DNA from: Hysterangium stoloniferum
Lineage: Eukaryota; Basidiomycota; Agaricomycetes; Hysterangiales; Hysterangiaceae
NCBI GenBank assembly: GCA_015178975.1
Contig: WHVD01000010.1
Span: 744,001-808,000 of the forward strand
Length of the DNA: 64,000 nt
Direction: 5' to 3'
In this document: piece by piece, positions 3,841-64,000 of the stretch
Layout of the letters: each line of letters starts with the position of its first letter
How positions within the stretch are numbered: position 1 is the stretch's first letter
The notes under the pieces: generated by a model
The model's database searches: none
Seen by the model: the letters and a program-made list of their open reading frames with translations, nothing else
What the model was told of the DNA's origin: nothing
Program-made: the position numbers and the translations under genes

Positions 3841-5222
3841 ATCCTAAAGAGGGGGAAAGTAACTATGCTGTTGTTAATCCACATAACTTGAAACCGCTTT
3901 TTACAATACAGCAACTTTCCACATCTATTCGAGTGACTTTCCTCTACTATCCAATTATGCATAGCATTATGATTATGGACATTGAACAATTACATCAAGA
4001 TATCCTTTCCGCACTCACTTCTGACCTGGCTCTCCAGCCACACCTAGAAGTTCCCGATAATCCCAACCAACCCTGATAGTCACAAGACTCTCAAGGGTTT
4101 ATCCATCTCGATGGACATATCTACATTCCAGATTCCAATAATCTCTGACTCCACATACTTCAGTACAAACATGATCATCCAATCTCCTGTTAAGTGCCAT
4201 GTTGGAACTTATTCTGGAACTATTGGAAAGTCACCAGGAAGTCGGGAACTATCAGATAGGGTCAGGACATTGGCTTCAGCTTATGTGCTGCACCTCTACC
4301 CAAACACTCAAAAGTCCTTAATTTCAAAGGTGAGACTTACGATGGAAGATACAGATATTCAGAGTTCCGAAGAGCTCCGAATATTGAATGTACAGAAAGA
4401 TGGAAGAGGGAATAAGAAACTAAGTCGATATCAGATCTGAAGTAAAGTACAAATTCACAGACACTAATACAAGTCTTCTCATTATTGTACTACAAACTAA
4501 GACCACAATAAGATGGAAATGGAAGTATTCTGAAACAGGAATACAACAAGACAAATTGGGGAGACAATATTCCGAAATGGCAATATAATAAACAAACGAG
4601 TGAATACTTGTCAACAGACAAATTACCAAATGCAGAACAAGGGAAGAATGCAGAAGATACGGTAATTATGATGTTCCGTAGTCGGAGGTCGGAGGTCGGA
4701 AGTTGGAAGTCAGATATTGAAACATCTGGGAATGGGTCATAACATCTCCAGACATTATGGCATTAACAATACTCTTGGTCTAATCTGAAGAGAATATACT
4801 TGGCCCAACCTCTGAGATTTCATAACCCAGTTCTGTAAGTCATACACCACCTGCTTACACTCTAAAACCCAGAGAAATAAGCTGTATGGCCTTCTCAAGT
4901 AACTTCTGATACTGGAAAAACCCTGGAACTCAATTTCCATGGATTTTATTGAACAACTTCCGACTTCTGAAGGCTTTACATCCATTCTAGTTGTTGTGGA
5001 TTGATTCTTGAAACAAGGCATTTTCATACCCACTCATGATACAATCACATCCTTACAATTAGCAGAACTTTTCATTATTCACATATTTTCCAAACATGGT
5101 GTTCCATCTCACATAACTTCCGATCAAGGCTCCAAGTTCGTCTCCCACTTCTTCCAGGCCCTTGGAAAAGCCCTCGACATGAAACTACACTTCACCTCGG
5201 GATATCACCTGGAAGGAGGATA
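3841..5222 (+). pseudogene. G1 integrase, interrupted and C-terminally deleted
   Basis: The N-terminal linker (WDVYPKEG..., near 3826) leads into a zinc-binding region that is cut at 4187 by a solo LTR and resumes at 4750 (REYTWP segment). The catalytic core is recognisable from MDFIEQL (4938) through VVVD, IFIPTHDTITS and ITSDQGSKFVSHFF to HLEGG (5222). The third catalytic residue region (GDGQTE in relatives) and everything after it are lost. The sequence then passes directly into the end of the antisense gene, so the deletion is internal to the element. Confidence 0.85.
4188..4744 (-). mobile_element. Solo LTR, family D, inserted in G1 integrase
   Basis: 557 bp, plus-strand start TGTTAAGTGCC and end GGGTCATAACA, flanked by the exact duplication tctcc (4183-4187 and 4745-4749). 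It carries the shared hairpin block at about 4269-4297, so the LTR reads on the minus strand. The same LTR family forms the 3' end of G1, so a relative inserted into this element and then lost its body by LTR-LTR recombination. Confidence 0.93.
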
Positions 5223-5232
5223 ACCCAAAACT

Positions 5233-6329
5233 TTAAAAATTATCTGCAATCTCTGCACTTTCCACCATATCCTGCACTTCTTCATCCTCACTTTCTGGCC
5301 CCTTTCCTGACTCCCACCTTTTCTCGACACATTCTGCCAACAGATCATTTGGCTGGTCCCTTGCCTTATCAGAAAATCTTTCAGAAACTGCAATAATGCT
5401 GATGCTAACCATTACCTTCTCCAGAAATTTGTTTTGCCTCTGGAAATTCCGGGTCATCGAATGGAAACCTTTTTCCTGGATATCATTATGGTGCTCCAGT
5501 GCATCCTGCATTTTCATAAGTTCTGTCCCAATAAAAACCAACACGTCCACAGTGTCCTTAGGAGCTCGATGCCAGAACTATCTGTATTCAGCACTTCAGT
5601 TTCTGTAATCTTGGCCATTCCCAAATTTTCCGCATCATCAGTTTTCTGAGCCTTCTCACCTTTCGAACCTTCTTCATGGCAAGAGTACACAGAAGTTTGA
5701 GAACTGTGCAGGGATAGCAAGTTCTGCCCCATTTTACCTTCTGTTTCCAACATGTTATATTCCAAATTGAACATCGGTAACACGGACTGTTGTGGATGAC
5801 CTCCATCCATTCTGGAGCTTTGACCTTTTGTTTCTGTCTCGGAAATTAGTCAACTTCCGACCTTTTACAAAGTCACTTACTTTTGGACTGGAAGGCCCAG
5901 CCTCTCCCTCTACCTCCACCTCCACCTCCACAGCTTTGCACTGTATCCAATCGTTATCGGATGAAAACATGGAAACTTACTGTTTAAACTTACCTTTCCC
6001 TCCCTTATTTCCTTCGCTCTCTTTTCTGCCACCTCAGACTCCCACTGCCTTTTCTCCACCTCATCTTTCTTCCTCTGATCCTCCGCCATTTTCCACATCC
6101 ACGCCTCCTTTTCTGCCTTCACCCACTCCAACTCCCACTTTTCCACCTTTTCCACCTCCTTCAACTCCCACATCAACATCTTTTCCTCCTCCTTTTGTCA
6201 TCACTTCATCTCCTCCATCCTCTGTCATTTTCGTTGAAGTTCTTTGACCTTCAACATCTTTTGAAGTGCAGAAATTTCGGTGTCTGAGTCTTCCAGGGTA
6301 GTGATAAACAAGGACCGACGAATCAACAT
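5233..6329 (-). pseudogene. Antisense accessory gene of G1: coiled coil plus Zn2Cys6-type cluster, three exons
   Basis: Reads on the minus strand, opposite to G1. Exon 1 (6329-5994) starts at an ATG and gives a Lys/Glu-rich coiled coil, with three in-frame TGAs. Intron 1 (5993-5941, 53 bp, GTAAGT...CAG) is followed by exon 2 (5940-5881, acidic, ending GPSSPK) and intron 2 (5880-5834, 47 bp, branch-like TGACTAAT). Exon 3 starts at 5833 with KQKVKAPEW and then the cluster C-x2-C-x6-C-x10-C-x2-C-x6-C (5782-5687), the spacing of fungal Zn(II)2Cys6 DNA-binding domains. A helical stretch and an acidic tail end at a stop at 5233. Frameshifts occur after the cluster. Exon borders match the copy at 58133-59130. 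Function unknown; DNA binding is inferred from cysteine spacing only. Confidence 0.72.
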
Positions 6330-6499
6330 GCAAGTTATGGTTAAAGAAACAAAATCATTAATTCGAATATTTGGAGGTTTTTATACTCAGACCAGCAGCC
6401 AAAACTCTCACCTCCAGAATTGTGTAAATTTCACAACACATAATGATCAGCTGTCACTTCAATCACTCAGTACCTAATCGCCTCTATGGGACTTCGGCC

Positions 6500-12572: not shown

Positions 12573-12925
12573 GAAGAACCTATAAGCAAGGTGGAACACA
12601 AAGGAATTCAGACTGAATGGTATTGTGAAGTTAGGTTGAAAAATTCATAAGTGTTGTTTTTTCTTTTAAATTTTGTCAAATTTTTCATTTTCTAATGATT
12701 TTTGTTGTTAGTTGCACGATGTGCTACAATACTGGGATTGTGTGAAAAAACTAATGTGTCCACAAATTGTAATTGATGCTCACAAATGCATTGCACTTGT
12801 TATTGGACAGTTAACAGGCCACCTGGGAAACCATGACAAAGTCAGAAGAAAAGTCAAAAGGTTATCAAAGAATCACATGATGAAGTCAAAAATGGTAGTC
12901 CAGGGATTCAAAGATTCAGGCAAAG

Positions 12926-13645
12926 TGTTACGACCGTGTCGCAACCCTATCGGCCCCGAGGTTATCGCCACTTGTCAACGTTTCAAGTCATCCTCTCGGA
13001 AACCATCGGCCCCGAAGCTGACGAATGTTTCGCGAAGATCAAACTCCATTTACGCCCACGTCAAATAACTCGTATTGTCTGGTCAAACTTTGATACGTCC
13101 CCTTTATTATGTTGATCCGTTCAATCTTATGTTTCGCATATGTCTATCTATATTTGTAGTCCTCGAACCATTTCCTTTTATCGTAATCCCGCTCTCAGTT
13201 ATCATCGGCCTCCGAACTAATCATAAACTTCCCGTTCCTAGTCAAGCTTATTGTTAATACCGTGTTCCGCCTTTCTCCCCATTAGTATTTTCCAGACGCC
13301 TGTTACTGGTATATGAACCCGCTGTAATTGTAGTTACTAGGTAATCAGAATATCGACTCAGAATACCCTCATACGTCTGTAGCAGTCTCATACTAGAAGA
13401 ACCCCCTTCCGCCTTCGCGTGCGCTCGCCCATTCTCAGCCCGATCCCTTGGCCCGACACTTGACCTGTCCTTCGGTTCCGATCGGTATCTCACCGAAAGG
13501 TCCTTCTTAGGATATAGTCTTCGCCTGTCCGAAATTTAAGGACAACCTACGAATATTTGCGAGGGCGCAGCACATAAGCTGAAGCCAAGTCCTTCCGATC
13601 GGTCCCCGTCGGCCACCGACATTAGTCAGTTTCCAGTTCTTAACA
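12926..13645 (+). mobile_element. Solo LTR, family B, young copy
   Basis: 720 bp, start TGTTACGACCG and end GTTCTTAACA, exact duplication caaag (12921-12925 and 13646-13650). Hairpin block at 13560-13591. It is CpG-rich, and its reverse complement is almost base-for-base the copy at 51110-51829, which has the same length, so both inserted recently. Confidence 0.94.
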
Positions 13646-14062
13646 CAAAGGAAAAATGCTCATCATAAAGCTATATCAAGAATGTTGGTATTATCCAGAA
13701 GGAAATCATTCTACAGTGACCCAAAAAAGTGTCCAGATGTTTGGTGAATTTGGAAAGAGAGGTTCACAGCTCCAGAAATAAAATAGATAAAAATCAGAAG
13801 AAATCAGAAGTAAGAGGTATACATCTGACCTATATGAAACATAAGCATGACATCATAACTTTCCTTACCAAGAGAGTAAAAAATAAACAATGTACATGGT
13901 GCATCTGGACACTTTTTTTGCTCTGTCAACTGATATATGAAACTCAACTAAGGTTCATATGACTGTGGGAATTTCTGGTTAGGTTCAATGAGGTCATGTG
14001 ACTACATGTTTAAATAACACATTTATATGAACCTTTGCCTCATTTCACCCTCCCACCACATT

Positions 14063-15806
14063 ATGAAGAAGAACTCTGCTGAAACAAGACTCTCTGTCAT
14101 TTCCCTTCTCCAAGAGAGTCACTCCTGCAGAATAATTGCTTCCAAACTCCATATTGGGCACTCTACAGTATCAGAAAATTGCTCCCAACTCCCTGGTCCA
14201 CTTCTAACACCTTCCAGAGGTTGTCCTCCCAAGCTCTCCCTCAGGGATCATCACCACCTGGCTCATTCTATCATCTCTGGACAGGTTGATAATGTCTCCC
14301 AGGCCAAGTCCTACCTCTCCCTCAATGTCTGCACACAGACAATTCACAATGCATTGAAGAAAGAGAATTTGAAGGCTGTGATGAAGGCCAAAAGACCCCT
14401 TCTTGCCTCTCAACACATCAAGACTCAATATGAGTTTGCTGTCAAGTATCAGCATTGGACTGAGGAGGACTGGTTTAGGGTTATCTTCTCAGATGAGACC
14501 AAAATCAATTGTTTTGGCTCTGTGGGAGGTTGTGGGTGTGGAAAGGACCAGGTTCTGCACTCACTCAGCAGCATATCAATGGAACTATCAAATTTGGAGG
14601 GGGGAATCTGATGATTTGGGGATGCATGACAGCACATGGAGTGGGGTACATGTGCAAGGTAGATGGGAGGATAGATGGGGAGATGTACAGGGACATATTG
14701 GAGGACTATATTTATCTTCAAAACAGTGGAGTATTATGGGATGGACAGGGAAAGGTTTGTCTTCCAGCAGGACAATGACCCTAAACATACTTGCAACTTG
14801 GCCAAGGATTGGTTCAAGGACCATCAGGTGGAGGTTTTAGACTGGCCTGCACAGTCTCCAGACCTGAATCCAATAGAACACTTATGGTGGGAGTTGAAGA
14901 GAAGGCTTGGAACATACCCTGAGGCACCTAAGAGCATGTTGGAGCTCTGGGAGAGGGTGGGGAGGGTATTCCAAGGGAGAAATGCTGTTACGACTGTGTC
15001 ACAACCTGACGGTCCCCGAGGTTATTGCCACCTATCAACGTTTCAAGTTATCAATCAAGTCATTGCATCGGAAACTGTCAGTCACCTGATGCTGATGTAT
15101 GCTTTCACGGCAATCAAACCCCATTTACACCCCCATCAAATTACTCGTACTATCTGGTTATACTCTGATACGTCCCTTTTTTATTATAATGATCCGTTTT
15201 ACACTATGTTTCACATATGCCCGTATATACTTGTAACCCATGGATTATTTCCTTTTCTCATAATTCTGCTCTCGGTTAAATCATGGCCTTGAAACTTATT
15301 GTAACCTTCCAGTTCCTAGTCAAGTTTATTTGTCAGTAATGTTTCCACTCTTCCCTTAGTTAGTATTTTCTAGACACCAATAATTTGTATATGAACCCAC
15401 TGTAGTTGTAGATACTAGACAATCAGAATATTGACTCAGAACACCCACATACATCTCTAGAAGTCTTACTCTAAAGTATCCCGCTCTCTGCCTTTGCATG
15501 TGCTCGCCCACTCTTGGTCCCTGACCTCTTGGCCTGACACTCAACTTATCCTTTGGTCCCGATTGACAACTCACCGTGAGTAACTCATTAGGACTAGTCT
15601 TCACCTGCCCAAAATTTAAGGACACCTGATGGTTACTTGCGAGGGTGCAGCACATAAGCTGAAGCCAAGTCCTTCCAATTGGTCCCTGTTGGCCTACCGA
15701 CATTAGTCAGTTTTCAGTTCTTAACAAATGCCTTGAATTGATCAAGAGCATTCCTAGAAGGGTTGCTGCAGTGCTAAAGGCCAAAGGGGGATACACTAAA
15801 TACTGA
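14063..15806 (+). pseudogene. Tc1-1 transposase, DD34E type, broken
   Basis: ATG at 14063. The N-terminal helix-turn-helix region (SAETRLSVISLLQES) is followed by the catalytic core with WFRVIFSDETK (first Asp), FVFQQDNDPKHTC (second Asp) and SPDLNPIEHLWW (Glu). Exactly 34 residues separate the second Asp and the Glu, so this is the Tc1 DD34E class. Frameshifts occur near 14530 and between 14650 and 14760, and a solo LTR cuts the C-terminus at 14985. The last residues (RRVAAVLKAKGGYTKY) and TGA stop are at 15732-15806. The protein would cut and paste the element at TA sites; it cannot be made from this copy. Confidence 0.9.
14986..15726 (+). mobile_element. Solo LTR, family B, in Tc1-1 transposase
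   Basis: 741 bp, start TGTTACGACTG and end GTTCTTAACA, exact duplication aatgc (14981-14985 and 15727-15731). Hairpin block at 15640-15671. It differs from the 720-bp young copies mostly by TG/CA in place of CG, so it is an older insertion. Confidence 0.93.
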
Positions 15807-16429
15807 AACTAGTAAAAACTAGTAGTTAATTACAAGAGCATAAAAAGTGTCCAGATGCACCATGTGCATTGTTCATTTTTTACTCCCCTGATAAGAAAAG
15901 CTATAATGTCATGCTATGTCATCATATAGGTCAGATGTATACCTCTTACTTCAGATTTCTTCAGATTTTTATCTATTTTATTTCTGGAGCTGTGAACCTC
16001 TCTTTCCAATTTCACCAAACATCCAGACACTTTTTTGGGTCACTGTAGAAGGTCAGGAACTATTTATCAAATGTCAGAAAATAGGTCAAATAATTACTTG
16101 GAGGAAGAAATGAAATTGATGCATGAAGAAATGTCAGAAATGAAGAATACTATTCATGACTTGGTTGATGATGTGAAGGAATTTAAAGAAGATTTTTTGG
16201 CAATGTCAAAGAAATTGGACAAATACATCTGGTGATTGGAGCAAAATGACCAATATTAGTGTTGATGATAAGATTTTTGGAAGGGCTTGGCATAAGAAGA
16301 TGGAGAGGTTGAGAAAGGAAGGAATTTTGAATACTTGAGTATTAATAGATCTTTTTAAATTTGATTTTTTTGATGTTGAATTATTGATAATGATATTAGT
16401 TGAAATTTTGAGGTCTTGGTAGTCTTGGA

Positions 16430-19400
16430 TATTTTCAATGAAATTCTTCAATAAGATTGAAAGTATGTTCACAATCTTGAGAGCCTAACCAAGAAGTTTC
16501 TTCATATGTCCCTTTGTGTCCTAGCCATGCAACCAAATATTATAATGAGTCCTTATATCTTTTATCAAATTTTGAATCCAAAATTTCTCAAGTTTCATAT
16601 TCAGGTTCTTCTTCAACATAAATTGGTGGTGGAGGTGGTTGTTTTTGATTTGGGAAAGTATTGGGATAAAATGGTCTAACATTGAAAAGAAATGTGAAAT
16701 ATGGGATGAATTCCTTTGAGATGCTTGGGGAGTTTTAATGTATATGAATGAGATCCTGGTTGAGCAATGATTTCAAAAGGGCCTAGTAATTTTTCCAATA
16801 ATTTTTTTGATGGTCAAGTCATTCAAATAAAGTCAGATTGTACATATACATACTTGAGAGTGGATCAGAAAATCAATTCATTCTTTCGACACATGTCAGC
16901 ATATTTTTGATAATGTAATTGAGCTTTCTGGATATTTGATTTGAGATATTTATGTAGAGGAGGTCTGTCATATATTCACAAGCAAGAGGGGAAGCTAAAT
17001 CCTTTTCAGGGTGAATTTCTAATAATAGATGATAACCTTTATTTGCAAAAAATGGTGTTTCACCTGTAGTTTCAGATGGTGCATTATTATAAGCAAATTC
17101 TGTGATGAGAAGTAATTCAGCCCAATTGTCTTGTTGATAGTTGCAATATATTTGTAAATATTGTTTGAGAGTTTGATTGACTCATTCAGTTTAACCATCT
17201 CCTTCTGGATGATATCCTGAAGTGAAATGTAATTTCATGTTGAGTGCTGTTCCTAGAGATCAAAAGAAATGTGAGACAAATTTGGATCCTCAATCAGAGG
17301 TTACATGACTTGGTACTCCAGGTTTTGAAAAGATATGTAATACAAAAAGTCGAGCAAGTTCAGGAGCATTGATTGTAGTATAAGTTGGAATGAATACTGC
17401 TTGTTTTGATAATTGGTTGACAATAATGAGTGTTGAGTTGTAATCTGTAGAAGCCAGTAATTGTTCAATAAAATCTATCAAAATTGAATGCCATAGTTGA
17501 AGAGGGATTGGAAGTTGTTTGAGTGATCCAATCAGTCGATGTTGTGGACTTTTCAATTTTGTACATGTTACACATGATCAAACAAATGCTTGAACATCTT
17601 GTCAAAGATGTGGCCAATAAAAATCACAATATATCATTTGATAAGTCTTCATTTGACCAAAATATCCTGCATTAATATGATCGTGCCTTGATTGAATGAT
17701 TCAAAGTTGAATATTCTGGAAATCAGGAACATAAATTCTATTTTTAAAACATAAAAAATCTTGTTCATTTCATTGCCAATCTTCTTCAACTTGGTCAAAA
17801 CTCTATTGAATTTTGTCAAGAGTAAATTAATCTTCTTTTTGAGCTTTCAATATATCTTTTAATAATTAATCAGTGTCCATAACCAATGTTACTTTCACTG
17901 CCATTGAAAGATAATGTGTTGCACATAAAGAAGTGTTGATTTGCTCATTTGTGAATATTGATCAAAGATTTGTTGGATTCTTTTTCAAATAATCTGGTTC
18001 ATTAGGGTAGACATCACTTCTTCTCAAAAGAATATCTGTTTTCAAATTTAGTTTTCCCAGTCTGAATCAAATAATTAAATTGAAAGTCAATAAGTATTCT
18101 GCCTATTGAGTTTGTCATTGAGACAGAATTTGAGTCATCACAAAATATTCAAGATTCTTGTGATCTGTTAAAACTTTGATTGGTTCTTTTGTTCCTTTGA
18201 AATAATGACACCAAATTTTGAATGATTTGAATATATAGTCCAAAAGGCATAACCAAGTATTTACAAGATCCATATTGAGTCCAAAAGGCTGTTTTCCATT
18301 CATCACCTGGGGCAATCCTAACTAAGTTATAGGCTACCTTGAAGATCAAGTTTTGTAAAATATTTTACCGTTCAAAGTCGATCTAAAAGATCAGGAATTA
18401 AAGAAAGTGGATACCAATTGTTTCAAGTAATTTTATTGAATCCTCAATAGTCAACACATAGTCATAAATGTCCATCCTTTTTCTTGACAAATAAAATCAG
18501 TGCACCAGCAGGAGATTGAGAGGATCAAATAAATTTCTTCGAAAGATTTTCTTGGAGATATTCTCATAACACTTTTAATTTTGTCTTGGATAATGGATAG
18601 ATCAGTCCCATAGGTGGAGTAGTTCCTTCTTCTAATGGGATAGTGCCATGAATGTACAAGCTCAAATTTTGATAATATTCAATTTAATATTTCTTTGACA
18701 TTCCTTTGACATTCCTTCAACTTTCCGACTCAATTTCCAATTCAACTTCCAACTCAACTTCTGACTCAACTATTCTTCGACAATATCTTCGACAATCTCA
18801 AATATCTTTGACTTGTCTCAGTTTGATGTTATTGATGATTTCACTTTGATATCATATTATCATCATAGGTAAATGATATATAGTATAAAAGGGCAATAAT
18901 AGGAACAAAGGAAGTCAGTCAGAAAACCTGTACTATATTATATTATTTACTGTATTGTATAATTGTTGAACTTTTTCCAAGATTTTCTTCAACTTATTTA
19001 TTCATGAGCCTCTGTGTCCTATCTTTGCCTCATGCTTTATCAACAGGACGAATTAATACTTCGTCAAACAAGGCATCTTTATTCGATATTGTTGAATATT
19101 CTTCAATTGTTTATTCGACTTTATTGAGTAAAATTTGATTTGTGACAGATAGTGTGATCATAAGTTCAATGTTGAGGTAAAGCTTCAGCTTCTTTCTTGT
19201 TGAAGACATCCGAGAAGTCATAATATTCTATTGGAACATTCAGTATGTCAAAAGATTTGAAGTCAAAGTCAAAGTAGTACCAGAGGCTTTACAAGTCTTG
19301 AAAGATTCATCATGAATATAAACCATGAAAGTTTGTGAATCTTTTGCTCATGCTGCCTGTAAAAACATTTTCTGGTTTACTATATTTATATTGTGATGAG

Positions 19401-24701: not shown

Positions 24702-26286
24702 CAGTGACTCACAAAACCTTTCCAATGTTTGGAGTTTGCATATTGGCAGACTGCTACCAGGAAAGAGAAAATAGCAAAAAGTTTCAAAAATTCACACTGG
24801 ATAGCTAAACATGTATAGAATCATGGTATAGAGTATTATTACATAATATGCATTTTTGGGTATGCTACAAATAGTTTAGTCAGGCCTGCTCATTGGAAAG
24901 GTTTTGTGGCTGATAATTTTGATACAATATATACTATATAAACTGGCCAAATCACATGTCTTTGTTGATTCTATTCAATATGGTCACATGACTTGTTGAT
25001 CTATAGTCAACTTTGATATTACTGTCTCTTCACATTGCCAGCGATCCATCATGCACTCCCTCTCTCCTGCTCAACAACAATATATTATCTCTCTACTTGA
25101 AGCTGGCCATTCCACTCCATCCATTGCCTCAATCACTGGTTTTGGCATTGGTACTATCCCCAGACTTCACTCTAAGCACCTTCCTACCCTTCCCAAATCA
25201 ACTGGAGGTTGTCCCAAGAAGCTCTCTGCTACCAACATCACACATCTGGAAAGGCTGAAACTGCAGTGGACATAGCCCAGAAACTTCAGACCATCACCAA
25301 CAACCCTATTTCAGCTGAGACAGTTCGGAGGAGCTTGAAGAAAGCAGGGATGAAAGCAGTTGTGAAGAAGAAGAAGCCACTTTTGTCCAAGAGATACATG
25401 AAGGAGAGGCTTGACTTTGCTTTGGCCCACCAGCACTGGACTTTAGATGACTGGAGGAGGGTTGTGTGGTCTGATGAGACTAAAATAAATCGCCTTGGCT
25501 CAGATGGGAGGAAATGGGCATGGAAAAAGACTGGGGAAGGCCTGAATGAGAGGCTTGTTCAAGGGACAGTGAGTTTGGTGGAGGATCAGTCATGGTTTGG
25601 GGGTGCTTCATGTGGGAGGGTGTGGGATATGCCACCAGGATTGAGGGTAGAATGGATGGGGAACTTTACAGGAGCATCTTGGATGAAGACCTCCAAAACA
25701 GCATCAGGTATTACCAGTTGGACCCTGCTAAAATCATCTTTCAGCAGGATAATGATCCAAAACATACCTGCAAAAAGGCAAAGGAATGGTTTGAAAATAA
25801 TGGAATGACTGTCCTACCATGGCCTGCCCAATCCCCAGACCTCAATCCAATTGAGCATCTATGGGATTACTTGAAGAGAAAGCTGGGACAGTATGCCACT
25901 GCACCAAGTGGGATTCTGGAGTTGTGGGAGAGGATAGAGAAGGAGTGGGAAGATATACCAGCTTCTGAGTGTCAGAAGTTAATTGAAAGCATGCCAAGGA
26001 GGGTTGAGGCAGTCATAAAGACCAAGGGAGGGTATACCAAGTATTAAAATATAGCATATATTGCATCATAATCATCAGCCACAAAACCTTTCCAATGAGC
26101 AGGCCTGACTAAACTATTTTTAGCATGCCCAAAAATACATATTATGTAATAATATTCTAGGCCACGATTCCATACATGTTTAGCTATCTAGTGTGAATTT
26201 TTGATATTTTTTACTATTTTTTCTCCCCTGGTAGCAGTTTACCAATATGCAAACTCCAAACATTGGAAAGGTTTTGTGAGTCACTG
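24702..26286 (+). mobile_element. Tc1/mariner element Tc1-3, structurally complete
   Basis: 1585 bp between TA duplications (24700-24701 and 26287-26288). Ends are CAGTGACTCACAAAACC and its inverse. Terminal repeats of about 210 bp (24702-24913 and 26075-26286) each carry an outer ACAAAACCTTTCCAATG and an inner inverted copy (24889-24909; 26080-26098). One transposase pseudogene lies between. It sits in the G3 middle domain, so it is younger than G3. Confidence 0.94.
25051..26047 (+). pseudogene. Tc1-3 transposase, DD34E, two frameshifts
   Basis: ATG 25051, starting MHSLSPAQQQYIISLLEAG with a helix-turn-helix N-terminus. Frame changes near 25250 and again at about 25565-25590 (in the FGGGSVMVWGC region). 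The catalytic residues are all present: RRVVWSDETK, IIFQQDNDPKHTC and SPDLNPIEHLWDY, with 34 residues between second Asp and Glu. Stop at 26045-26047 after GGYTKY. The most nearly intact transposase in the window. Confidence 0.92.
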
Positions 26287-30415: not shown

Positions 30416-32060
30416 TCACCCGGCCCTTCTCTGAATACCTTTCTGCCTTCAATATGGTCATCCACTTCTGTCCTGGCCACCTTGGTGGAAAACCTGATGC
30501 TATGACTAGATGATGGGACGTCTATCCTAAAGAGGGGAGTAGCGACTATGCCACAGTTAATCTGCATAATTTCAAGCCTATGTTTTCATCGGAACAACTG
30601 TCTGAGTTAATCCGAGCTACTTACCTTATACATCCAGTCATGCACAGTGTTATCCTTATGGACACCGAAAAATTACATCAAGACATACTATCGGCAATTC
30701 CATTAGACCCAGTCACCAAAGCACATCTCAATAATCTGTCCGACCCCGATCATTTCTGATGGTCACTTGACCCGCAAGGTTTCATTAAACTTGACAATTG
30801 CATATATGTTCCGGATCCTAACACTCTCCAACTTTGAGTCTTGCAGTATAAACACGACCACCTGATCTCGGGACTTTTCAGTATCAATTTACCATCGGAC
30901 GTATCTGAAGAGAATATACATGGCCCAGTCTCCGAGATTTTGTCAAGCATTATTGTAAATCATGCACCAACTGTGCATGTTCCAAATCAAGATGTCACAA
31001 ACCATATGGCCTACTCAAACAATACCGGAAAAACCCTGGAATTCAATATCAATGGATTTCATTGAACACCTGCCAGCATCTAACGGCCATACCGCAATTC
31101 TCGTTGTTGTGGATTGGCTTACCAAGCAAAGTATTTTCATTCCAACTTATGATACAGTAACATCCATACAGTTGGCCAAATTGTTCAACACTCATGTATT
31201 CTCCAAGCATGGCATTTCCGTTGCATGTCACTTCCGATTGCGGATCCAAGTTCATCTCTCACCTTTTTAGGTCACTCGGAAAAGCACTTGACATGAAACT
31301 CCATTTCACTTTCCGGCTACCACCCGGAAAAGCAATGACCAAACTGAATGCACTAATCAAACACTGGAACAGTACATCTGAGTATATTGCAACTATCAAC
31401 AAGACAATTGGAAATCACTTCTACCACTTGATGAATTCGCATATAACAACACCCCAAATGCTACTACCGGCATTTTGCCTTTCTTCACAAATAAAGGCTA
31501 CAACCCAAACATCGCTATCCATCTGGAACACGATCTCACTTTAACCTGTGCTCAGGACTTTGTCACAAACCTCAATGAGCTACACCAAGAACTTCGAAAG
31601 AACATCACATCAGCCCAGGAACATTACCAACACTCCACAGACAAAAATCGGCTGCCACCCCTGAACTCAAGATTGGTGACCGAGTATTTGTCAAAGCCGA
31701 GTTCTTCCGAATGACTAGACCATCCAAAAAAGCTCGCCAATAAGTACTTAGGACCTTTTGAAATTATAGCACAAGCAGGCACGCTCTCTTGGACGCTTCA
31801 GCTCCCCGAGAATATGTGTGCAGTACACCTAGTACAACCTCCACCTCCACCTGTGGTTATTGATGGGGAACCCAAATTCGAGGTATCGGAAATCCTAGAT
31901 TCAAAGATGGATAATCACCGATGTACCTGCAAACTACTCTATTTGGTCAAGTGGACAGGTTACAAAGGTACCGATGAATAAGCATCCTGGATTCTTGCCA
32001 CAGAACTCGGAAATGCATCGGACATCGTCAAAGACTTCCATCAAGCATATCCGAACAAAT
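30416..32060 (+). pseudogene. G6 RNase H end, integrase and chromodomain, broken
   Basis: Reading begins at a SAFNMVIHF segment (about 30445). Next come WDVYPKEG and the integrase N-terminal region (30840-31060), the core with ILVVVDWLTKQSIFIPTYD (31099-31155) and decayed second and third catalytic regions, then the C-terminal domain. A chromodomain (LLYLVKWTGYKG, near 31939-31974; SWILATELG) ends near 32060. Chromodomains steer chromovirus integration to marked chromatin. Stops and frameshifts throughout; the third catalytic Glu region is altered. Confidence 0.85.
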
Positions 32061-54136: not shown

Positions 54137-56200
54137 TGTAATGTATTAGCCTTATTTCAATATTATTTTCTGGAAAAAGGAGTCCAATGCTCTATCAAAA
54201 TGTGCAAATACTCAATTCACTGCAAGGTAAAATAATTTAAGTATTTGATATTAATCAGTGGCAGCCTAAATAGACTTAGAACCCCTGAAGTCAAGAGTTT
54301 ACTTGAATATATGCACCCTACTTCGCAAAGAAGGTTTTGAGAGCTGCTTGTGCAAGCTTGTTCTTTTTCTGTAAAAACAACTACTAAAATAAGAATAACA
54401 ATTTACTGATTCTGAAGCTAGATTTAACTTCAATGCTAGCTAGTTTATATATATTTTATACTATTTATCAAACAGTAAAAATATTTATAAACAGGTCAAA
54501 AGATTGGATATAGAATAAAACACTATTTGGCTAATATATGCTTTATTTACACTAACCTACAAGGTCTACTGTGATATTAACTTATCAGGATCTTAATGTA
54601 GTCTTAAGGATTCTGCAAGGATATTCTCAGTATTTGTTTATGTGAATATGCTTTACTGATTCACAATAAATGAACAAAGGAACGGGATTATTTGCAATGT
54701 AATAAACAGTCAAATTACTCAACTAGAGGTGACTGAAGTCTTAAACTACAAATAACAATGTAAGGAAAACTAATAATCAGTACTCAATTAAGAGATGACT
54801 ATAGTATGAGATTATTTATATATTATTAGTTGATAACCAACAACTCTAACTGAAGTGGAAATAATATATAAAAGATAGCCAACTATTCAATTAAGAAGTG
54901 GCAAGGGGGAACAAAAGTCAACAACTCAGATTGAGGTGACAGGGGAACAGCAGATCAGTCAACAGCTCAGATTGAGGTGACAAGGGATCTGATTGGGCCA
55001 ACAACTCTGATAGAGGTGGCAAGGGTTTCCAACAGCTCAGATAGAGGTGGAATGAGATGTCCAACTGCCCAGATAGGGGTGGAGTAGCCTGCTTGCTGCA
55101 GTGACACACACAGATGTGGTGGGTTGATGTGATGATATGATTGATTGATTGATTTTTTTCAAGGCTGGAGCTGAGCTCCTTATATACATTTTAGTCTGAG
55201 ACATTTAGAAGATTCTAGAAGATTTAATGATGTCATTCTGGGAGGAGTGATGTCATTTAGAATTTTCTAGAATTTTCTAGAGCATTGTGGAAGGTTCTAA
55301 CTACTTCTAAGACACTATAGAATATTCTTGGCATAATGGAACATTGTAGAATTTTATAGAATATTCTACAATATTCTATCTAATATTAGTACCTATTAAC
55401 TAATGTTCCATTGGAAGCCACTGGAATGTTCCAGAGAGTTTCCTGTTTTTGTTGCAGTAGCATATATGATGACATAATGCTCTCGCGCCTGTGCGCGCGC
55501 ATGACACCCTTCGCGTCTTGTGACTGTCACGCGTTGTGACAGTCGCGCGCCTGTGTGACCGTCGCGCGCCTGTGTGACCGTCGCGCGCCTGTGTGACCGT
55601 CGCGCGCCTTTGTGACAGTCGCGTGCCTCTGTGACCGTCGCGCGCCTCTGGGACCGTCGCGCGCCTCTGTGACCGTCGCGCGCCTCTGTGACCGTCGCGC
55701 GCCTTTGTGGACAACTGTCACCTGTTATGACGGTTGTCACTCGTTGTGACGATTTTCCCGCGCGCCGTGTAATAAACGCCAGGCCGGTTTTATATTATTA
55801 TATAATTATTATATTTACTTTTAGTTAGTTATAAATATAATATTTTATTATAATAATATAAAAATATATATATTTCGCCTTGATAATGCGCGAGTATTTC
55901 AAATCGCGTTTTGTCAGCGTCGGAGTTTGAAATATCATGTGAATGTCACATGATTACTCGCGTGTTGTGAATAAGCGCTGAGTCGCCGACATATTAATCA
56001 AAAAAGAATAAAAAGTAGAAATTCAATTACTTGCTCAATTTATTAGATAAAAATACAAAATAAATTGTATAAATTCAGGATAAATCAAACAAATATTGTA
56101 CAATTTAATCGTCGCAATATAATTACATTTGAATATTTGTTTTCGCAATTTGTTAGGGGAAATTGTTTAAAAATTGGAAAAAACTTAGAAATACATAACA
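54137..56200 (+). mobile_element. Long AT-rich solo LTR (family E/G) in Tc1-4
   Basis: 2064 bp, start TGTAATGTATTAGCC and end ATACATAACA, exact duplication gtggt (54132-54136 and 56201-56205). TATA region CCTTATATACATTTT near 55182, shared with 6942-8193. It contains short repeats of CAACAGCTCAGATTGAGGTG type (about 54920-55070) and a CpG-rich 19-bp minisatellite (55534-55708). No coding potential recognised. Confidence 0.85.
55534..55708 (+). repeat. CpG-rich 19-bp minisatellite
   Basis: About nine units of GTGTGACCGTCGCGCGCCT with small variants, inside an otherwise very AT-rich LTR. The period gives 19-residue peptide repeats on the minus strand (about 55400-55740), which are a by-product, not a gene. 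Confidence 0.93.
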
Positions 56201-57046: not shown

Positions 57047-57957
57047 GGTAGGCTGGTCAAGGGCACAGTCAGGTGAGGAAATCTGATGTTGTGGAGCTGT
57101 ATGTTGTGGGAAGGCCCAGGATATTCCACCAAGATTAATGGGAGAATGGATGATGACCTTTATGGTAGCATTTTGGAAGATGAACTTAAAGCAACTGTGG
57201 AGTATTATAGCAAGAACACAGAAGATGTGGTCTTTCAGCAGGACAATGACACCAAACACAAGAGCACAAAGGCCATTAATTGGTTCAAAGACAATGGATT
57301 TATGGTCATGGTATGGCCACCTCAGTCTGCTGACCTTAATCAATTGAACACCTCTGGTATTACCTCAAAAGGAGGTTGGGAGAGTATGAAGTGGCACCCA
57401 AGAGTATTCATAAGTTGTGGGAGAGAGTTCAGACAGAGTGGGAGAATATCCCTGCCTCTACTTGTCAGAACTTGATAGAGAGTATTCCTAGAAGGGTTGA
57501 GGCTGTTTTGAAGGCCAAGAGAGGCTATACCAAGTACTAGATTGTTTGATTTGTGTTCCTTTTATACCAGGGACAAAACCCTTCCAATGTGATTTTATTA
57601 GTGTTTTGTTTATAATGTGGGAAATACTAATGCTTATGTCATAATATTTCAAGGGCATATAGATAACATATAGACCTAACCAACCCCCAAATTTCAGGTC
57701 TGTATCTACAGTGGTTCTTGAGTTATTCAAGGATCTTTTCACAACTAAAAATCATTGGAAGGATTTTGTCCCTCACTGTAACCAGATAGTACGAGTATAT
57801 TTTGATGGGGGTGTAAATGGAGTTTGATCACCGTGAAAGCATACATCAGTGTCAGAAGACCGACGGTTTCTGATGTAATGACTTGAATGATAACTTGAAT
57901 TGTCGATAGGTGGCAATAACCTCAGGGACCATTGGGTTGCGACACGGTCATAACAGT

Positions 57958-58132
57958 ATCCCCCCATTTGGCCAGCCAAAATCCCAAGGAGGCTGAAAAT
58001 CTAGATTCCGTATGTAAAAACTTGTTGGGTACAGGTGGTGTGTCAAAACATCATGTGACTTGGTAAAAATTTACATCAAAAAATTCGAGGGGTTCTGGCA
58101 CTTGATTTTTTACTTCTCTTCCCTCAACCACC
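57958..58132 (+). promoter_or_regulatory. Polypurine tract (minus) and upstream region of the antisense gene
   Basis: GTATCCCCCCATTTGG is the inverse of the G5 polypurine tract. Then comes CCAAAATCCCAAGGAGGC, matching the block beside the tract in G1, G4 and G6. GGTGTGTCAAAACATCATGT (about 58037-58056) matches the doubled motif in G4. The coding start follows at 58133. The promoter role is inferred from conservation and position. Confidence 0.55.
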
Positions 58133-59130
58133 ATGACCATTGGCTCGGGGTCGAAACCCTTCCCGGTTCAGTTGATGGTCGCTCCCATGTTGGTCCCAAG
58201 TGGGCCATCAAGTGCCCAAGAACGTCGTCACCTTCTTGAGGAGATAAGGAAAGCACGCGAGGAGGAGGAGCGGAAGGAGAAGGAGGAGCTGGTGGCCATA
58301 GAGGCGGAGAAGAAGAAACTGGCAGTGGAAGAGGCTGCACGCAAGTACTGGGACATGGTGCTTGTGAAGAAGAAGCAGTGGGAGGCCGATCGGGCACGAG
58401 AAGAGGAGGCGAAGAAGAAGTGAGAGGGAAAGGTAAGTCGGGTTCCCGTTCTTTTGCTGACCTTGCTAACTCTTTTTTTTTTTCAGTGCGAGGTAGCGAC
58501 GCCTTCAGAGTCCGATGACAAGGAGGACGAGGAGGACGAGGAGGGTGTACTGGGGCCATTGAGCCCCAAGGTGGGTTCGGGTTTCTAACACTGTAGTTTT
58601 CTAATTTTTTTTGATTATAGAAACAAAAACAGGCCCCCAAGGTGGGGCCCGAAAATGACCCAAAGTGCAACTGGTGCACTAAATGGGGTTGGACTTGCCA
58701 TCCATGGGCAAGTGGTTGGGGCCACACCTGTCAAGAGTGTGCCAACCAAAAGCTCAGGTGCATATTCCCAGATGCTGACGGGAATGGGTCCTACCAAGAA
58801 TGGCAGGCCAATGCGTTAGAGGAGCAAAACCACCTCATGCACACCTATTTCTTGGAGATGACTTGGTTCCGATTCGAGACACTGCGACAACAAGGACTCA
58901 TGACCAAGCAATTGTGATTATTGGGTGTTGGGTTGGACAAACAGACCAACGTGATTGAGTCGCTCAGGGAGCAACTTGAACAATATTTAGAAGTGTCGAG
59001 TTGTGATGGAGTTGGGCCTGGAGTTGGGGTATTGGAAAAGGTTGGTGAGGAGGTGTCAGTGGCCGTCGGTGAGGGGGAAGGTTCGGAAGCCGGAGAAGAA
59101 GGGGAGGTTGTAGAGGAAACCTTTAGGTAG
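58133..59130 (+). pseudogene. Antisense accessory gene of G5: coiled coil, acidic exon, Zn2Cys6-type cluster
   Basis: Three exons: 58133-58432, 58487-58570 and 58621-59130, with introns of 54 bp (GTAAGT...TGCTAAC...CAG) and 50 bp (GTGGGT...TTCTAAC...TAG), both phase 0. Exon 1 is a Glu/Lys/Arg-rich coiled coil, exon 2 is acidic and ends GPLSPK, and exon 3 opens KQKQAPK. The cluster C-x2-C-x6-C-x10-C-x2-C-x6-C (58666-58761) is the spacing of fungal Zn(II)2Cys6 domains; a helix and a Gly/Glu-rich acidic tail follow. About 297 codons. Two in-frame TGAs (58421, 58918) could both be decayed CGA. The G1 copy has the same exon structure. Role unknown; DNA or chromatin binding is plausible from the cluster. 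Confidence 0.78.
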
Positions 59131-59239
59131 TAAAAATATAATGGTTTTAAAAACAAACAAACATAGCATGAAATCATAAGGCATGGTCGGGAAAAGGTCG
59201 GGTACTGCGTGAGACGACTTATAGGGAATTTAGAGGACC
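59131..59239. other. Short gap between antisense gene and G5 pol 3' end
   Basis: The two genes converge here. AT-rich after the TAG at 59128; no further feature seen. Confidence 0.5.
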
Positions 59240-60812
59240 AGGTTTATTTGGATAAGCTTGATGAAACCCTAAAATGATTTCTGATGCATTGCCGAGCTCT
59301 GTAGCTGGGATCCATGAAGTTTCTTCATCTGTACCTTCATAGCCAGCCCATTTAACTAAATAAAGTAATTTGCATGAGCATCAGCGATTGTCAATTTTTG
59401 AGTCTAGGATTTCCAATATCTCGAATTCAGGTTCTCCATCAATAATCATGGGTGGAGGTGGTGGTTGTATGTGATCTGGTATATTGTTAGCAACACAAGG
59501 TTCTAACATAGATACGTGAAATACTGGGTGCACTGCACACATGTTGTTGGGAAGCTGAAGTGTCCATGAAAGTGTGCCGGCTTGTGCTATAACTTTAAAA
59601 GGACCTAAATATTTTTCAGAGAGCTTCTTAGAGGGTCTAGTAGTTTGGAAAAACTCGGCTTTAACGAATACTTGGTCTCCGATCTTGAAATCAGGAGGTG
59701 GAAGTTGAGTCTTATCCATGGACCATTGGTATCGTTGTTGGGCCAATTGCGATAGTTTTACAAAGTTCTTGATGTAGCTCGTCAAGGTTTGTAATGAAGT
59801 CTTGAGCACGGGTGGATTGCAATGTTGGGGTTGTAGCCTTTGTTTGCAAAGAAAGGCAAAATGCCAGTAGTGGTGTTTGGTGTGTTGTTATATGTGAATT
59901 CGGCTAGCAGTAGTAGTGATTTCCAGTTATCTTGTTGATAGTTACAATAGACACAAATGTACTGTTCCAAAGTTTGATTCATGCGTTCGGTTTGGCCATC
60001 GCCTTCCAGGTGATAGCCTGAAGTGAAGTGTAATTTCATGTCTAGTGCTTTTCCAAGTGACCTAAATAAATGAGAGACAAACTCGGATCCACGATCAGAT
60101 GTGACATGCAATGGAACACCGTGCTTGGAAAATACATGGGTGACGAATAATTCAGCTAACTGTACAGATGTTATTGTGTCATATGTTGGAATGAAAATAC
60201 TTTGCTTTGTGAGCCGATCCACAACAACTAGGATTGCTGTATGACCTTCAGATGCCAGTAGATGCTCGATGAAATCCATAGAAATCGAGTTCCAGGGTTT
60301 TTCTGGTATCGGTAATTGTTTGAGTAAGCCATATGGTTTGTGTCGCTGTGATTTAGAGCATAAACATGTTGTACAAGATTTGCAATAGTGCTTAACAAAA
60401 TCTCGGATGCCGGGCCATGTATATTCTCTTCTAATGAGTGAAAGAGTTTTATTGAGGCTGAAATGTCCCGAGATTGGGTGATCATGCTTATGTTGTAAGA
60501 TTCACACCCGAAGGGTGTTGGAATCCAGTACATAAATGCAGTTGTCAAGTCTAATGAAACCTTGTGAGTCTAGTGACCATTGGGGTTGGATGGGTTATCG
60601 AGGTGTGCTTTGGTGATTGGGTCTAATGGAATTGCCGATAGTATATCTTGATGTAACTTTTCAGTATCCATAAGAATAACACTTCGCAAGACTGGATGAA
60701 TGAGGTAAGTGGCTTGGATAGATGCAGACAGTTGTTCTGATGAAAACATAGGCTTGAAATTATGCAGGTTAACTGTGGTGTAGTCGCTACTCCCCTCTTT
60801 AGGATAGAGGTC
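59240..60812 (-). pseudogene. G5 integrase and chromodomain
   Basis: From right to left on the minus strand: linker (LYPKEGSSDYTTVNLHNFKP, near 60800), zinc-binding region with a frameshift (60360-60480), and core with MDFIEHL, VVVDRLTKQSIFIPTYD, VTSDRGSEFVSHLF and EGDGQTERMNQTLEQ (60279-59940), all three catalytic residues present. A frameshift near 59800 leads to the C-terminal domain (59809-59381; YLGPFKVIAQAG) and a stop within the chromodomain. Chromodomain residues LLYLVKWAGYEGTDEETSW are at about 59380-59300. Would insert element DNA at chromatin read by the chromodomain. Confidence 0.88.
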
Positions 60813-62700
60813 TCATTGTCTAGTCATAGCGTCGAGTTTTCCACCAAGGCGGCCGGGATGGAAGCAGATTACTATATTGAAAGTGGAGAGGTATTCAGAC
60901 CATTGGGCTTGCCGACAGGTGAGGAGTTTTGTGGTTGAAAAGTAAGCCAAATTTTTGTGGTCAGTAATAACATCTATTGGGTGAGCCGATCCTTCCAAAT
61001 AATGTCGCCATGTTTTGAAAGCTTCAAATATTGCAAGTAGTTCTTTATTGTGAACATCATAGTTGATTTCGGGTGCCAAAAATGTGCGAGACAAAAAAGC
61101 TACTGGGTGAACTTCACCATTGGTGTCCAAAATGGACAATATCACAGCAAGTGTATAATCTGAGGCATCAGTTTCCACAATGAGTTGAACATCGGGCTTC
61201 CAGTGCAACAAAATAGGAGCAGATGTAAACACACTTTTCAATTCTCAGAATGCTGTCTTTGCGAGTAAGATGAGTGAGTGGAACTGTAATTTTTGAGTAG
61301 TTGTGAATGAAACAATGATAAAAATTGGCGAAGCCTAAAAAGGACTGAATATCCATAGCCTTTCAGGGTTCCTGCCAATCCTGAATGACTTGAATTTTAG
61401 AGTCATCCATGCGGAGACCATCAGGTCCCATCATGAAACCTAAATATTCAACTGTGTTGACATCAAAAGAACATTTTTTACCATTCACAAAAAGACCATG
61501 TTTTTGGAGTCTTTGGAGAACTTCACAGACGTGTTTGTCATGAAGTGTAGGATCTTCAGAGAATATAAGGATGTCGTCTAAGTACACAATGACAAAGACA
61601 TTGAGGAGGTTGGAAAAGATGACATTGATAAAACATTGAAAGACCAATGGAGCGTTGGTGAGACCGAAAGGCATCACTAACCATTCAAAGGAGCCATAGC
61701 AATTGTGAAAAGCTGTTTTCCATTCATCACCTTTGGTGATCTGAACCAAATGATAGGCATGTTTGAGATCTATCTTTGTATAGATTTGGGCCTTCTGAGG
61801 GGCATCAAGTAAATTGGAGATTAGTGGTAACGGGTACTTATCTTTTCGAGTGATCATTTAGTCCTCGAAAGTCAACACAAAGCCAAAGAGAACCATCTTT
61901 TTTCCAAACAAATAGGATGGGGGCTCCATAAGGAGACTTTGAGGGTCAGATAAAACCTTTAGCCAAGTGTTCATCCAAGAAATCTCGGATAGCCGATAAT
62001 TCGGACTGCGAGAGAGGATAAACTGGGCCTAAGGGCAGATGTGAACCTTCTTCAATATCAATTTTCAAATCATAAGGCCTGTGAGGAGCAAGTCAATCAG
62101 CTTTTTGTTTACTGAAGACATCTGCAAATTTGTGGTATTTTTCTGGAACACCTTCCAAATCTGCGATCGGTTCGATCACTGGGGATGCAAAGTGACCGGT
62201 GACTTTGTCAACTTTAAGATTGACTGTAAATGCTCGGGAGCCGTCCAACTTGATGGCTCTCATAAAAGCTGTGGCATTTATTAGAGAGACAGGCAGTGGA
62301 GAGCTCGGATTTGCCACGGGGGCCAGAGGAGCCATAGAGGCCATATTTGCCAAAACAGGTGGAAATGGACCAGTCGTATCAGGTGCTGACAGGGTTTGGA
62401 AATGGATACTGCCCAATACCCAATCAATCAATGGATTGTAGCAGGTGAGCCAGTTATGTCCTAGAACCATGGAGCAGCTCGAGTCCAACTGTGTTACAAA
62501 AAATGTAACTGTCTGAAAGGTTCCACATGGGAACCGAAGTTGGAGTTCACAGGCTTGCGAGATTATGGAGTTGGAAGTATGTACCATCAAAGAGTTGGAG
62601 TGGAATCAGATCTATTGCATAGGTTTTTAACTGATTTTTTTGGGAAAAACTTATATCTATAAAACAATGGGTTGAACCTGAATCTATGAGAGCTCAAAAA
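60813..62700 (-). pseudogene. G5 protease-RT-RNase H
   Basis: Protease LIDSGSTHCFIDISFSQ near 62690-62640 (a stop just upstream and one near 62630). Then a long linker and RT start (62590-62093), the RT core with LPLISNLLDAPQKAQIYTKI, FGLTNAPLVFQ and an intact VYLDDILIFSED (61857-61363), FLGFANFY (near 61340) and RNase H with [15 protein letters not shown] and HNKELLAIFEAFKTW (61241-60813). Only a handful of stops, near 62093, 61970, 61860 and 61360, and one frameshift near 61240. Less damaged than G1. Confidence 0.9.
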
Positions 62701-62822
62701 GTAAGACTCCCGAGGGGTTCTGAAGTAAGATTTATGAACAAGAAATTGGGATCATACAGGGTGGATGCATTAAGATGACAATTTTCTGGTGTGCAGGGAG
62801 ACTCAATGCAACTCTCCAACTG

Positions 62823-64000
62823 CATGAAATCCAGAGAGTTGCTTAATCTTTTTTTGACTCGGCCGCCAGCTTAGCCAGTTGTGAAGTTGTGGCCATATTG
62901 GCTGATCGGGCTTTTGTGGCCTTCAGGCATGCGGCGACTCGGTGTCTGGGATCTGTGCACAACAAAGGTTGTTGTCCATTCGGCATTGCTTTTCCTGTGG
63001 TAGGAGCTTGCCATCGGAGCCGAGTTTGCCAGTTACGAGTTTGCCAGTTAAGTCAGGTTTGTCTTTATCTTGAGACTTATTTGACTGTTTGCCCTTGCCT
63101 TTTTTTGTCATTAGAACCCTTGTTTTTGGACTTCTTATTGGAGTTCAAGTTGCTACTATTGTTGGTGTTTTGATTACCAGGCTTGTTAGCATTCTTATTG
63201 TCTGATGATTTTTTGTCCGACAGGTTTTCACGACTGATTTCTGAATGTTGTTCCCAGTATCGGGCATCCGTGTTTTGGGCCTTTAGACACATGAGGGGGA
63301 GAGTCTTCAGTTTGCCAGTCTCTCCTTTGGAAACTTCATCTTTGAGGCAAGATGGGAGGCTGGAGTAAAACTGGTAACAGAGGGCCGAATCACCCCAGTC
63401 GCAACATGTGGCGAGGTTGTTGAACTGGATGATGTAGTCGGTGATGCACTGGGTGTCTTTCATTTTGAGATTAGAAAGTGTGGTTTCAGCATTGCTGGTT
63501 TGGTCATAGGGACCGAAGTTTGTTTTGAGTTCCTCAACAAAGGCATCCCAATCGTGAAGCCAATCAGGATCTTTGGAGGTGAAGCCGGAGAATGCAGGTT
63601 CAAACCAGGCTGCTGCGGAATCCTTAAGGTACGAGAGTGCAAAATTTACCTTTCGGACATCCATTGCGAAAGCAGCCGGGCGGTCCCAAAAGTTGAATCG
63701 ACATTGCATAAGGAATGTCGGTAATTTCTTCAGGTTTGAGCTGGTAAACCGTTCGGGTTTGTTGACTCGGGTTTGCCCAGGTTCTTTTTCCTTGGTATTG
63801 TTCTTAAGGAAATCATTAAGGGATCCTAAGGTACCTGAGAACAATTCCCATGTCTTGTCGGGATCAAAGTCCAGTTTTTGTTTCGCAGACTCCTTAGGAC
63901 CATTAGTCTGAGGTAAGGACTGGTCACTATCCTCAGGTTTGGGTCCCAGAACTGATTGGTTGTTAACCTCTTCAGGTGCTTCAGGTTCAGTGGCTTCAGT
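62823..64000 (-). pseudogene. G5 gag, N-terminus outside window
   Basis: Open from the window edge (64000) to 63077. The capsid part has KPERFTSSNLKKLPTFLMQC, WFEPAFSG, WLHDWDAFVEELKTNFGPYD and MKDTQCITDYIIQFNN. A frameshift near 63095 is followed by the Lys-rich linker. The zinc knuckle near 62950 has lost bases, leaving only a C-x4-H-x4-C remnant (CTDPRHRVAAC). It ends at about 62845-62823, where protease-linked sequence begins. Confidence 0.87.

Follow-up and report, generated by a model that had tools for sequence, protein, structure and literature searches.

In plants, Gypsy retrotransposons can carry an antisense open reading frame between pol and the 3′ LTR (aORF-3R); in the sections of two papers available to us, the examples are maize Grande with GENE23, rice RIRE2, and Silene Retand with TRP28 (PMC7264820, PMC11963269). 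The Grande product is described there as nuclear and as transcribed from its own upstream promoter, and the authors also propose regulation, the function in plants being unknown. The word ‘intron’ is absent from the main text of both papers. In deltaretroviruses, according to the available part of PMC10186651, HBZ of HTLV-1 and APH-2, APH-3 and APH-4 of HTLV-2, HTLV-3 and HTLV-4 are regulators that damp LTR-driven expression and come from spliced antisense transcripts starting from the 3′ LTR; HBZ and APH-2 are nuclear.

Here we analyse a 64-kb stretch of genomic DNA from the fungus Hysterangium stoloniferum (the window), in which Gypsy elements carry an antisense gene with introns and a six-cysteine cluster. 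The elements G5 (58133–59130, + strand) and G1 (6329–5233, – strand) share one three-exon architecture, antisense, between the integrase and the 3′ LTR. We refer to G5-like copies of the gene as alpha and to G1-like copies as beta. The parts of the gene are as follows.

57956–58132, + strand: G5 leader, from the inner edge of the LTR to the ATG; the TATA box of other alpha copies is altered here
58133–58432, + strand: G5 exon 1, rich in E, K and R and coiled-coil-like by eye; one in-frame stop in this copy
58433–58486, + strand: G5 intron 1, phase 0, GTAAGT...CAG, 54 nt
58487–58570, + strand: G5 exon 2, acidic, last residues GPLSPK; its junctions are also those of the NCBI gene model P0001
58571–58620, + strand: G5 intron 2, phase 0, GTGGGT...TAG, 50 nt
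58621–59130, + strand: G5 exon 3, encoding the six-cysteine cluster and after it a long helix, the latter predicted from a different alpha copy; interrupted here by one in-frame stop
58666–58761, + strand: G5 cysteine cluster, C-x2-C-x6-C-x10-C-x2-C-x6-C
6379–6385, – strand: G1 antisense TATA box, TATAAAA, at –56 from the ATG
5994–6329, – strand: G1 exon 1, three in-frame stops in this copy
5941–5993, – strand: G1 intron 1, phase 0, 53 nt
5881–5940, – strand: G1 exon 2, last residues GPSSPK
5834–5880, – strand: G1 intron 2, phase 0, 47 nt
5233–5833, – strand: G1 exon 3, with the cysteine cluster at 5782–5687 and a frame broken downstream of it

All four introns are of the GT...AG type and of phase 0. 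When the whole window was searched in six frames for the exact cysteine spacing, the G5 and G1 clusters were the two matches, and nothing else was found. The original prediction of one antisense three-exon gene in both elements, with matching intron positions and phases and an identical cysteine spacing, is thus confirmed by the coordinates. Its remark that exon 2 opens with TGC does not hold as a general rule: alpha copies also have CGC or CAC at this point, and beta copies CGA, CAA or TGA (deduced from the translations R, Q and stop). The stops in both window copies, together with the broken exon 3 of G1, leave neither able to make the full protein. A chance origin of the cysteine pattern was considered and rejected, given 0 matches in 20 Markov shuffles and the frame-specific constraint described below.

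The host elements resemble fungal chromovirus Gypsy in having gag, reverse transcriptase, RNase H, integrase, an SH3 domain of the Tf2-1 type and, in G5, a chromodomain-like end, and Pfam scans assigned the reverse transcriptase, RNase H and integrase to the Gypsy type. Unlike such elements as described in the literature searched, they contain an antisense gene. Compared with the G5 integrase over the aligned parts, that of G2 (a further Gypsy element of the window) shows 58% identity and that of G1 71%.

59219–59368, – strand: G5 pol end, a chromodomain-like stretch and the pol stop; convergent with the antisense gene, the two stop codons lying 88 nt apart
59384–60501, – strand: G5 integrase, with H2C2, rve and SH3_Tf2-1
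61008–62440, – strand: G5 reverse transcriptase and RNase H, frames broken
62764–63652, – strand: G5 gag
4714–5217, + strand: G1 integrase core
16688–17700, – strand: G2 integrase, antisense to the remnant described below and downstream of it

The chromodomain profile PF00385, tested in G5 alone, scored 24.3 bits on the pol end (cut-off 25.1, E = 3e-5). In the window, no cysteine-cluster gene could be recognised behind a further Gypsy integrase at 30861–31915 (+ strand). The window also holds a tandem array with a 19-bp unit (55516–55747) and, by eye, Tc1/mariner-like transposase remnants at 14018–15292 and 25176–26047.

A ruined copy of the gene had also been predicted in G2 (12712–16235). 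The remnant is real, in two pieces, and belongs to a third family, gamma, not to the gene type of G5 and G1.

12720–12854, + strand: cluster part of gamma exon 3, 51% identical to the gamma query (E = 2.5e-12), with two TGA codons
16089–16232, + strand: coiled-coil-like tail of gamma exon 3; nested insertions lie between it and the cluster

By eye, a solo LTR like that of G5 (12926–13645), with CAAAG on both flanks, lies inside this gamma gene, which is also interrupted by Tc1-like sequence; the remnant at 14018–15292 is nested in the G2 element along with more LTR-like sequence. The gamma structure has introns of phases 1 and 2, the second immediately 5′ of the first cysteine, and a gap of 8 residues between the third and fourth cysteines (by eye); exons 1 and 2 differ from those of alpha and beta. 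Alpha and beta have in common the exon 2 pattern RKA...GPSSPK and the exon 3 start KQK, and hhalign joined them with a probability of 94.4% over 41 cluster columns. Judged by these likenesses, alpha and beta are homologous. Homology of gamma to either of them was not supported by hhalign (1.8% and 1.0%); the beta–gamma alignment is weak, yet has the cysteines in register.

Searches of the genome revealed at least 150 alpha matches (the best 150 of 749 candidates, with a 98-residue query from G5 exon 3) and at least 150 beta matches (the best 150 of 683, with a 67-residue query from G1 exon 3). The cysteine part of a gamma copy gave 113 matches from 117 candidates, a few of which share one copy, and the 48-residue G2 tail at 16089–16232 gave 95 from 105. 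Loci were sampled from the gene side, with gene-less elements outside the counts. In gene orientation, an antisense integrase lay at most 1.5 kb downstream at 28 of the 33 loci of alpha, 14 of the 23 of beta and 12 of the 14 of gamma, and its distance from the gene was mostly near-constant; the proposed antisense linkage to Gypsy integrase is found at most of these loci. It was missing within 1.5 kb at 16 of 70 loci, 15 of them without any integrase there and one, an alpha locus, with an integrase on the same strand. The gene lies antisense to gag-pol between pol and the 3′ LTR, which is the aORF-3R position. Upstream, 25 of 29 alpha loci have the inner edge of the LTR 168–176 nt away from the ATG; for beta the best edge, with a loose motif match, was 665–682 nt upstream of exon 3 in 13 of 23 loci. 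Next to one alpha copy there is a long tandem-repeat array (L037:3584–7868), between the gene-side integrase end and more integrase sequence.

Most of the aligned copies are decayed (L034 and L035, which duplicate L022 and L016, were excluded from the gene alignment). All three exons are open in 3 of 34 alpha and 2 of 24 beta copies, one of the latter with altered last residues, and exon 3 is open along its length in many. All four splice dinucleotides are retained in 30 of 34 alpha copies, including G5, and in 20 of 24 beta copies, including G1, with intron lengths clustering around 50 nt. Of the 27 codon columns with a stop in at least one copy, 17 have CGA as one of their five commonest codons, probably the usual footprint of CpG transitions.

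Because CpG decay consists of transitions, selection was measured on transversions, by comparing 0-fold with 4-fold sites over all copy pairs. The exon 3 counts exclude copies whose exon 3 is not in frame along the counted stretch (8 of 34 alpha, 11 of 24 beta and 6 of 14 gamma). The exon 3 ratio was 0.089 for alpha (95% CI 0.051–0.155; 26 of 34 copies), 0.214 for beta (95% CI 0.121–0.401; 13 of 24) and 0.13 for gamma (8 of 14); the intervals, from a codon bootstrap, are approximate, since copy pairs are non-independent and some stop-bearing copies are included. Exon 1 gave 0.19 in alpha (20 of 34 copies) and 0.55 in beta (14 of 24), where it is weakly constrained. Wherever the ratio is defined, the gene's own frame has the lowest value of the six; in one other gamma frame it is undefined, with zero 4-fold transversions. 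The mirrored frame (rev 1) came second (0.31 alpha, 0.44 beta, 0.25 gamma), a place to be expected from third positions facing each other. A sense-strand reading frame as the constrained product was likewise considered and rejected, as the antisense frame has the lowest ratio wherever defined. The six cysteines are retained in 154 of 156 alpha and 76 of 78 beta alignment cells. These substitution patterns indicate that the antisense gene is under purifying selection in alpha, beta and gamma; neutrality was not found, and the earlier proposal that the gene is kept by selection across several Gypsy lineages stands.

Leaders were covered for 29 of 33 alpha and 19 of 23 beta loci. Of the 29 alpha leaders, 26 have TATA[AT]A on the gene strand at –80 to –40 relative to the ATG, compared with 1.3 expected from base shuffles; 25 of these boxes are at –56/–57, the remaining one being in a copy with foreign upstream sequence. 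All 19 beta leaders have it at –55/–56 (1.0 expected). In the window, G1 has retained the box and G5 has it changed. No canonical TATA box was seen in gamma leaders. The placement at –55 to –57 points to an alpha/beta core promoter within the element yet outside the LTR. In 22 of 29 alpha leaders, ACCACC comes before the ATG. A GCCGAAATCCCAnnGAGGC-like stretch next to the LTR edge is common to alpha and beta leaders (14 of 29 and 4 of 19), which otherwise differ; it is possibly a binding site or a priming-related sequence. CGG/CCG pairs are the usual half-sites of Zn2Cys6 proteins. Upstream of the gene they showed no consistent enrichment, exceeding expectation in some copies and pair types.

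At the sensitivity of word-based searching, the database relatives found were P0001, P0002 and P0003 only. P0001, a hypothetical NCBI protein of H. stoloniferum, is an annotated model that joins alpha exons 1, 2 and 3 at the same junctions and differs in its start and end; P0002 is a second Hysterangium protein related to the gene. A metagenome assembly supplied P0003, which shares the cysteine spacing and is 39% identical to beta. Its best match in the present genome reaches 45% identity among the best 150 of 914 candidates, which suggests that P0003 comes from another organism. A search with the combined profile A3 returned P0001 as the only relative among the matches listed, and viral contigs scanned with P0003, beta and alpha queries yielded no relative.

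The Zn(II)2Cys6 signature consists of six cysteines spaced C-x2-C-x6-C-x(5-12)-C-x2-C-x(6-8)-C. The copies have this spacing, with x10 between the third and fourth cysteines in alpha, beta and P0003 and x8 in gamma, so to this extent the Zn(II)2Cys6 identity originally proposed agrees with the data; the Pfam profile PF00172 (Zn_clus) stayed below its cut-off or unmatched in every copy tried. Against a cut-off of 21 bits, G5 scored 17.1 bits and cluster pieces of alpha and beta 14.1 and 13.8 bits; Pfam scans listed no Zn_clus match in longer alpha or beta exon 3, in P0003 or in gamma. A genome scan with the profile listed one alpha place, at 16.9 bits. Ordinary Zn_clus domains are present in this genome (83 matches at E up to 10), and contigs C56, C115, C309, C37, C209 and C85 have places with at least two matches per open frame, some of them clustered. 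In native order, the weak Zn_clus matches at 58666–58761 and 5782–5687 align the cluster's first half to the profile's second half. Swapping the halves changed the alpha score from 14.1 to 14.5 bits and the beta score from 13.8 to 16.4, about alike, so that swapped halves remain a lead.

Structure prediction, also suggested at the outset, supported the helix and gave low confidence for the cluster. In the AlphaFold model of alpha exon 3, a 68-residue helix spans positions 55–122, most of it at pLDDT about 97. Cluster pLDDT is about 50 in alpha and about 60 in beta, whose model is poor throughout and has two short helices near the CxxC pairs (block pLDDT 54–66). Foldseek with the alpha model gave one unusable match (E = 7.2), and VIA-align with the beta model gave helical hairpins and coiled coils of unrelated proteins. 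No zinc-cluster structure was in the output of either, an absence that excludes nothing. A PDB sequence search returned nothing credible, and NCBIfam nothing of use. Given the low Pfam scores and the poorly modelled cluster, ‘zinc cluster plus coiled coil’ is a reading based on sequence.

The gene shares with the plant aORF-3R its place and orientation and its maintenance in many copies. It differs in its fungal host, two conserved introns, six-cysteine cluster and TATA box at a fixed distance; the TRP28 domain of the Retand type (PF04195) was not listed in Pfam scans of the gene. With HBZ and the APH genes it has in common an antisense position near a retroelement 3′ LTR and introns, here predicted ones. 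Unlike theirs, its putative alpha and beta TATA box is placed outside the LTR. Pfam scans listed no bZIP domain, a trait of HBZ, and no sequence relation to HBZ or APH was shown. By analogy, HBZ and APH would be the nearest working model, and the plant antisense frames the nearest anatomical match. Fungal Gal4-type Zn(II)2Cys6 factors (PF00172) have a similar cysteine spacing and, compared with alpha, a long predicted helix after the cluster, whereas the element gene scores below the Pfam cut-off or is unmatched, and its weak matches pair the halves as if swapped. A full-text search of the open-licence literature found no fungal precedent for such an antisense gene. The words ‘antisense’ and ‘zinc’ are absent from the main text of a paper on Laccaria transposable elements (PMC3411680), and Zn2Cys6, Gypsy and antisense occurred together in that literature only in a Morchella genome paper, as far as its available part goes. 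The gene is a fungal, intron-bearing, cysteine-cluster variant of retroelement antisense genes, without precedent found in the open-licence literature.

The place and strand of the gene, its exon structure, the TATA box in alpha and beta, purifying selection, presence in three lineages and a relative elsewhere are established as far as sequence can establish them. The explanation that we favour, by a modest degree when taken as a whole, is that this is a spliced antisense accessory gene encoded by Gypsy, whose product tunes the element's sense transcription; element transcription is one of the three putative roles first suggested, the others being chromatin targeting and silencing. A core promoter of its own, lying in the short leader that separates the 3′ LTR from the ATG, would drive transcription against the direction of gag-pol, and two short introns would be spliced out of the transcript. 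In the predicted product, a long helical stretch comes after the six-cysteine cluster, which in alpha and beta is preceded by the E/K/R-rich exon 1. If made, this protein may bind zinc, dimerise through its helix and enter the nucleus, where it would bind the element's own LTR or leader and tune sense transcription; by analogy with HBZ and APH in deltaretroviruses, tuning would most likely mean damping. The introns would persist because sense RNA is the intermediate by which copies propagate, and antisense splice sites go unread in it; their persistence through many copies fits the original suggestion that antisense introns survive reverse transcription of the sense RNA.

A selected antisense protein might instead act elsewhere, in packaging or export of genomic RNA, in integration targeting or against host silencing, with a protein partner or RNA as the ligand of its cluster. 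The signs of selection, the promoter and the splice signals speak for a protein but not for its target, the PF00172 cut-off is not reached, and the frequency of CGA in stop columns suggests that the elements suffer CpG mutation, so that an anti-silencing factor would be useful to them. We nonetheless consider such a role unlikely: the chromodomain-like end of G5 pol could already supply chromatin targeting, and both the cluster-then-helix layout and the cysteine spacing are those of fungal zinc-cluster regulators. That the conserved product is the antisense RNA, acting as double-stranded RNA or by interference with sense transcription, is very improbable. Retroelement antisense transcripts can act as RNA, as the available part of PMC7264820 discusses for plants; here it is the gene's own frame that has the lowest ratio (0.09, 0.21 and 0.13), the cysteines are almost invariant and exon 3 is open in many copies, a frame-specific constraint that largely contradicts an RNA product.

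We attach still less weight to a passenger host gene, transduced once and carried neutrally. Gene capture by LTR elements is known (PMC7264820, available part), and the genome has ordinary Zn_clus domains. The gene, however, occupies one and the same position in three lineages, G5 and two whose integrases match that of G5 at 58% and 71% identity; purifying selection acts on it, and another organism has a diverged relative. A further question is that of origin, and one answer to it, compatible with the tuning explanation, is that alpha and beta descend from one ancestor while gamma acquired its cluster independently. The gamma intron phases, x8 spacing and exons 1 and 2 all differ, and hhalign joins alpha with beta and leaves gamma apart; against this, gamma has the same position, strand, three-exon layout and order of cluster and helix, and its weak alignment to beta keeps the cysteines in register. 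Separate captures are therefore a real possibility, toward which we do not quite lean.

One genome thus contains hundreds of matches to a gene that has splice sites, a promoter and a cysteine cluster that can be recognised, and fungi are a kingdom in which reporters and binding sites are easily tested. As the database relatives are hypothetical or unnamed, annotators gain a recognisable family. Tentatively, and with some reserve, we suggest that fungal Gypsy elements have long carried an intron-bearing antisense gene for a dimeric zinc-cluster regulator of their own, TATA-led and possibly with swapped halves, which would bind the control region of the element and set its activity, a counterpart of HBZ of independent origin; so read, its age would exceed the divergence of the three lineages and of host species. 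A gene of this kind would explain the stable life of spliceosomal introns inside a retrotransposon.
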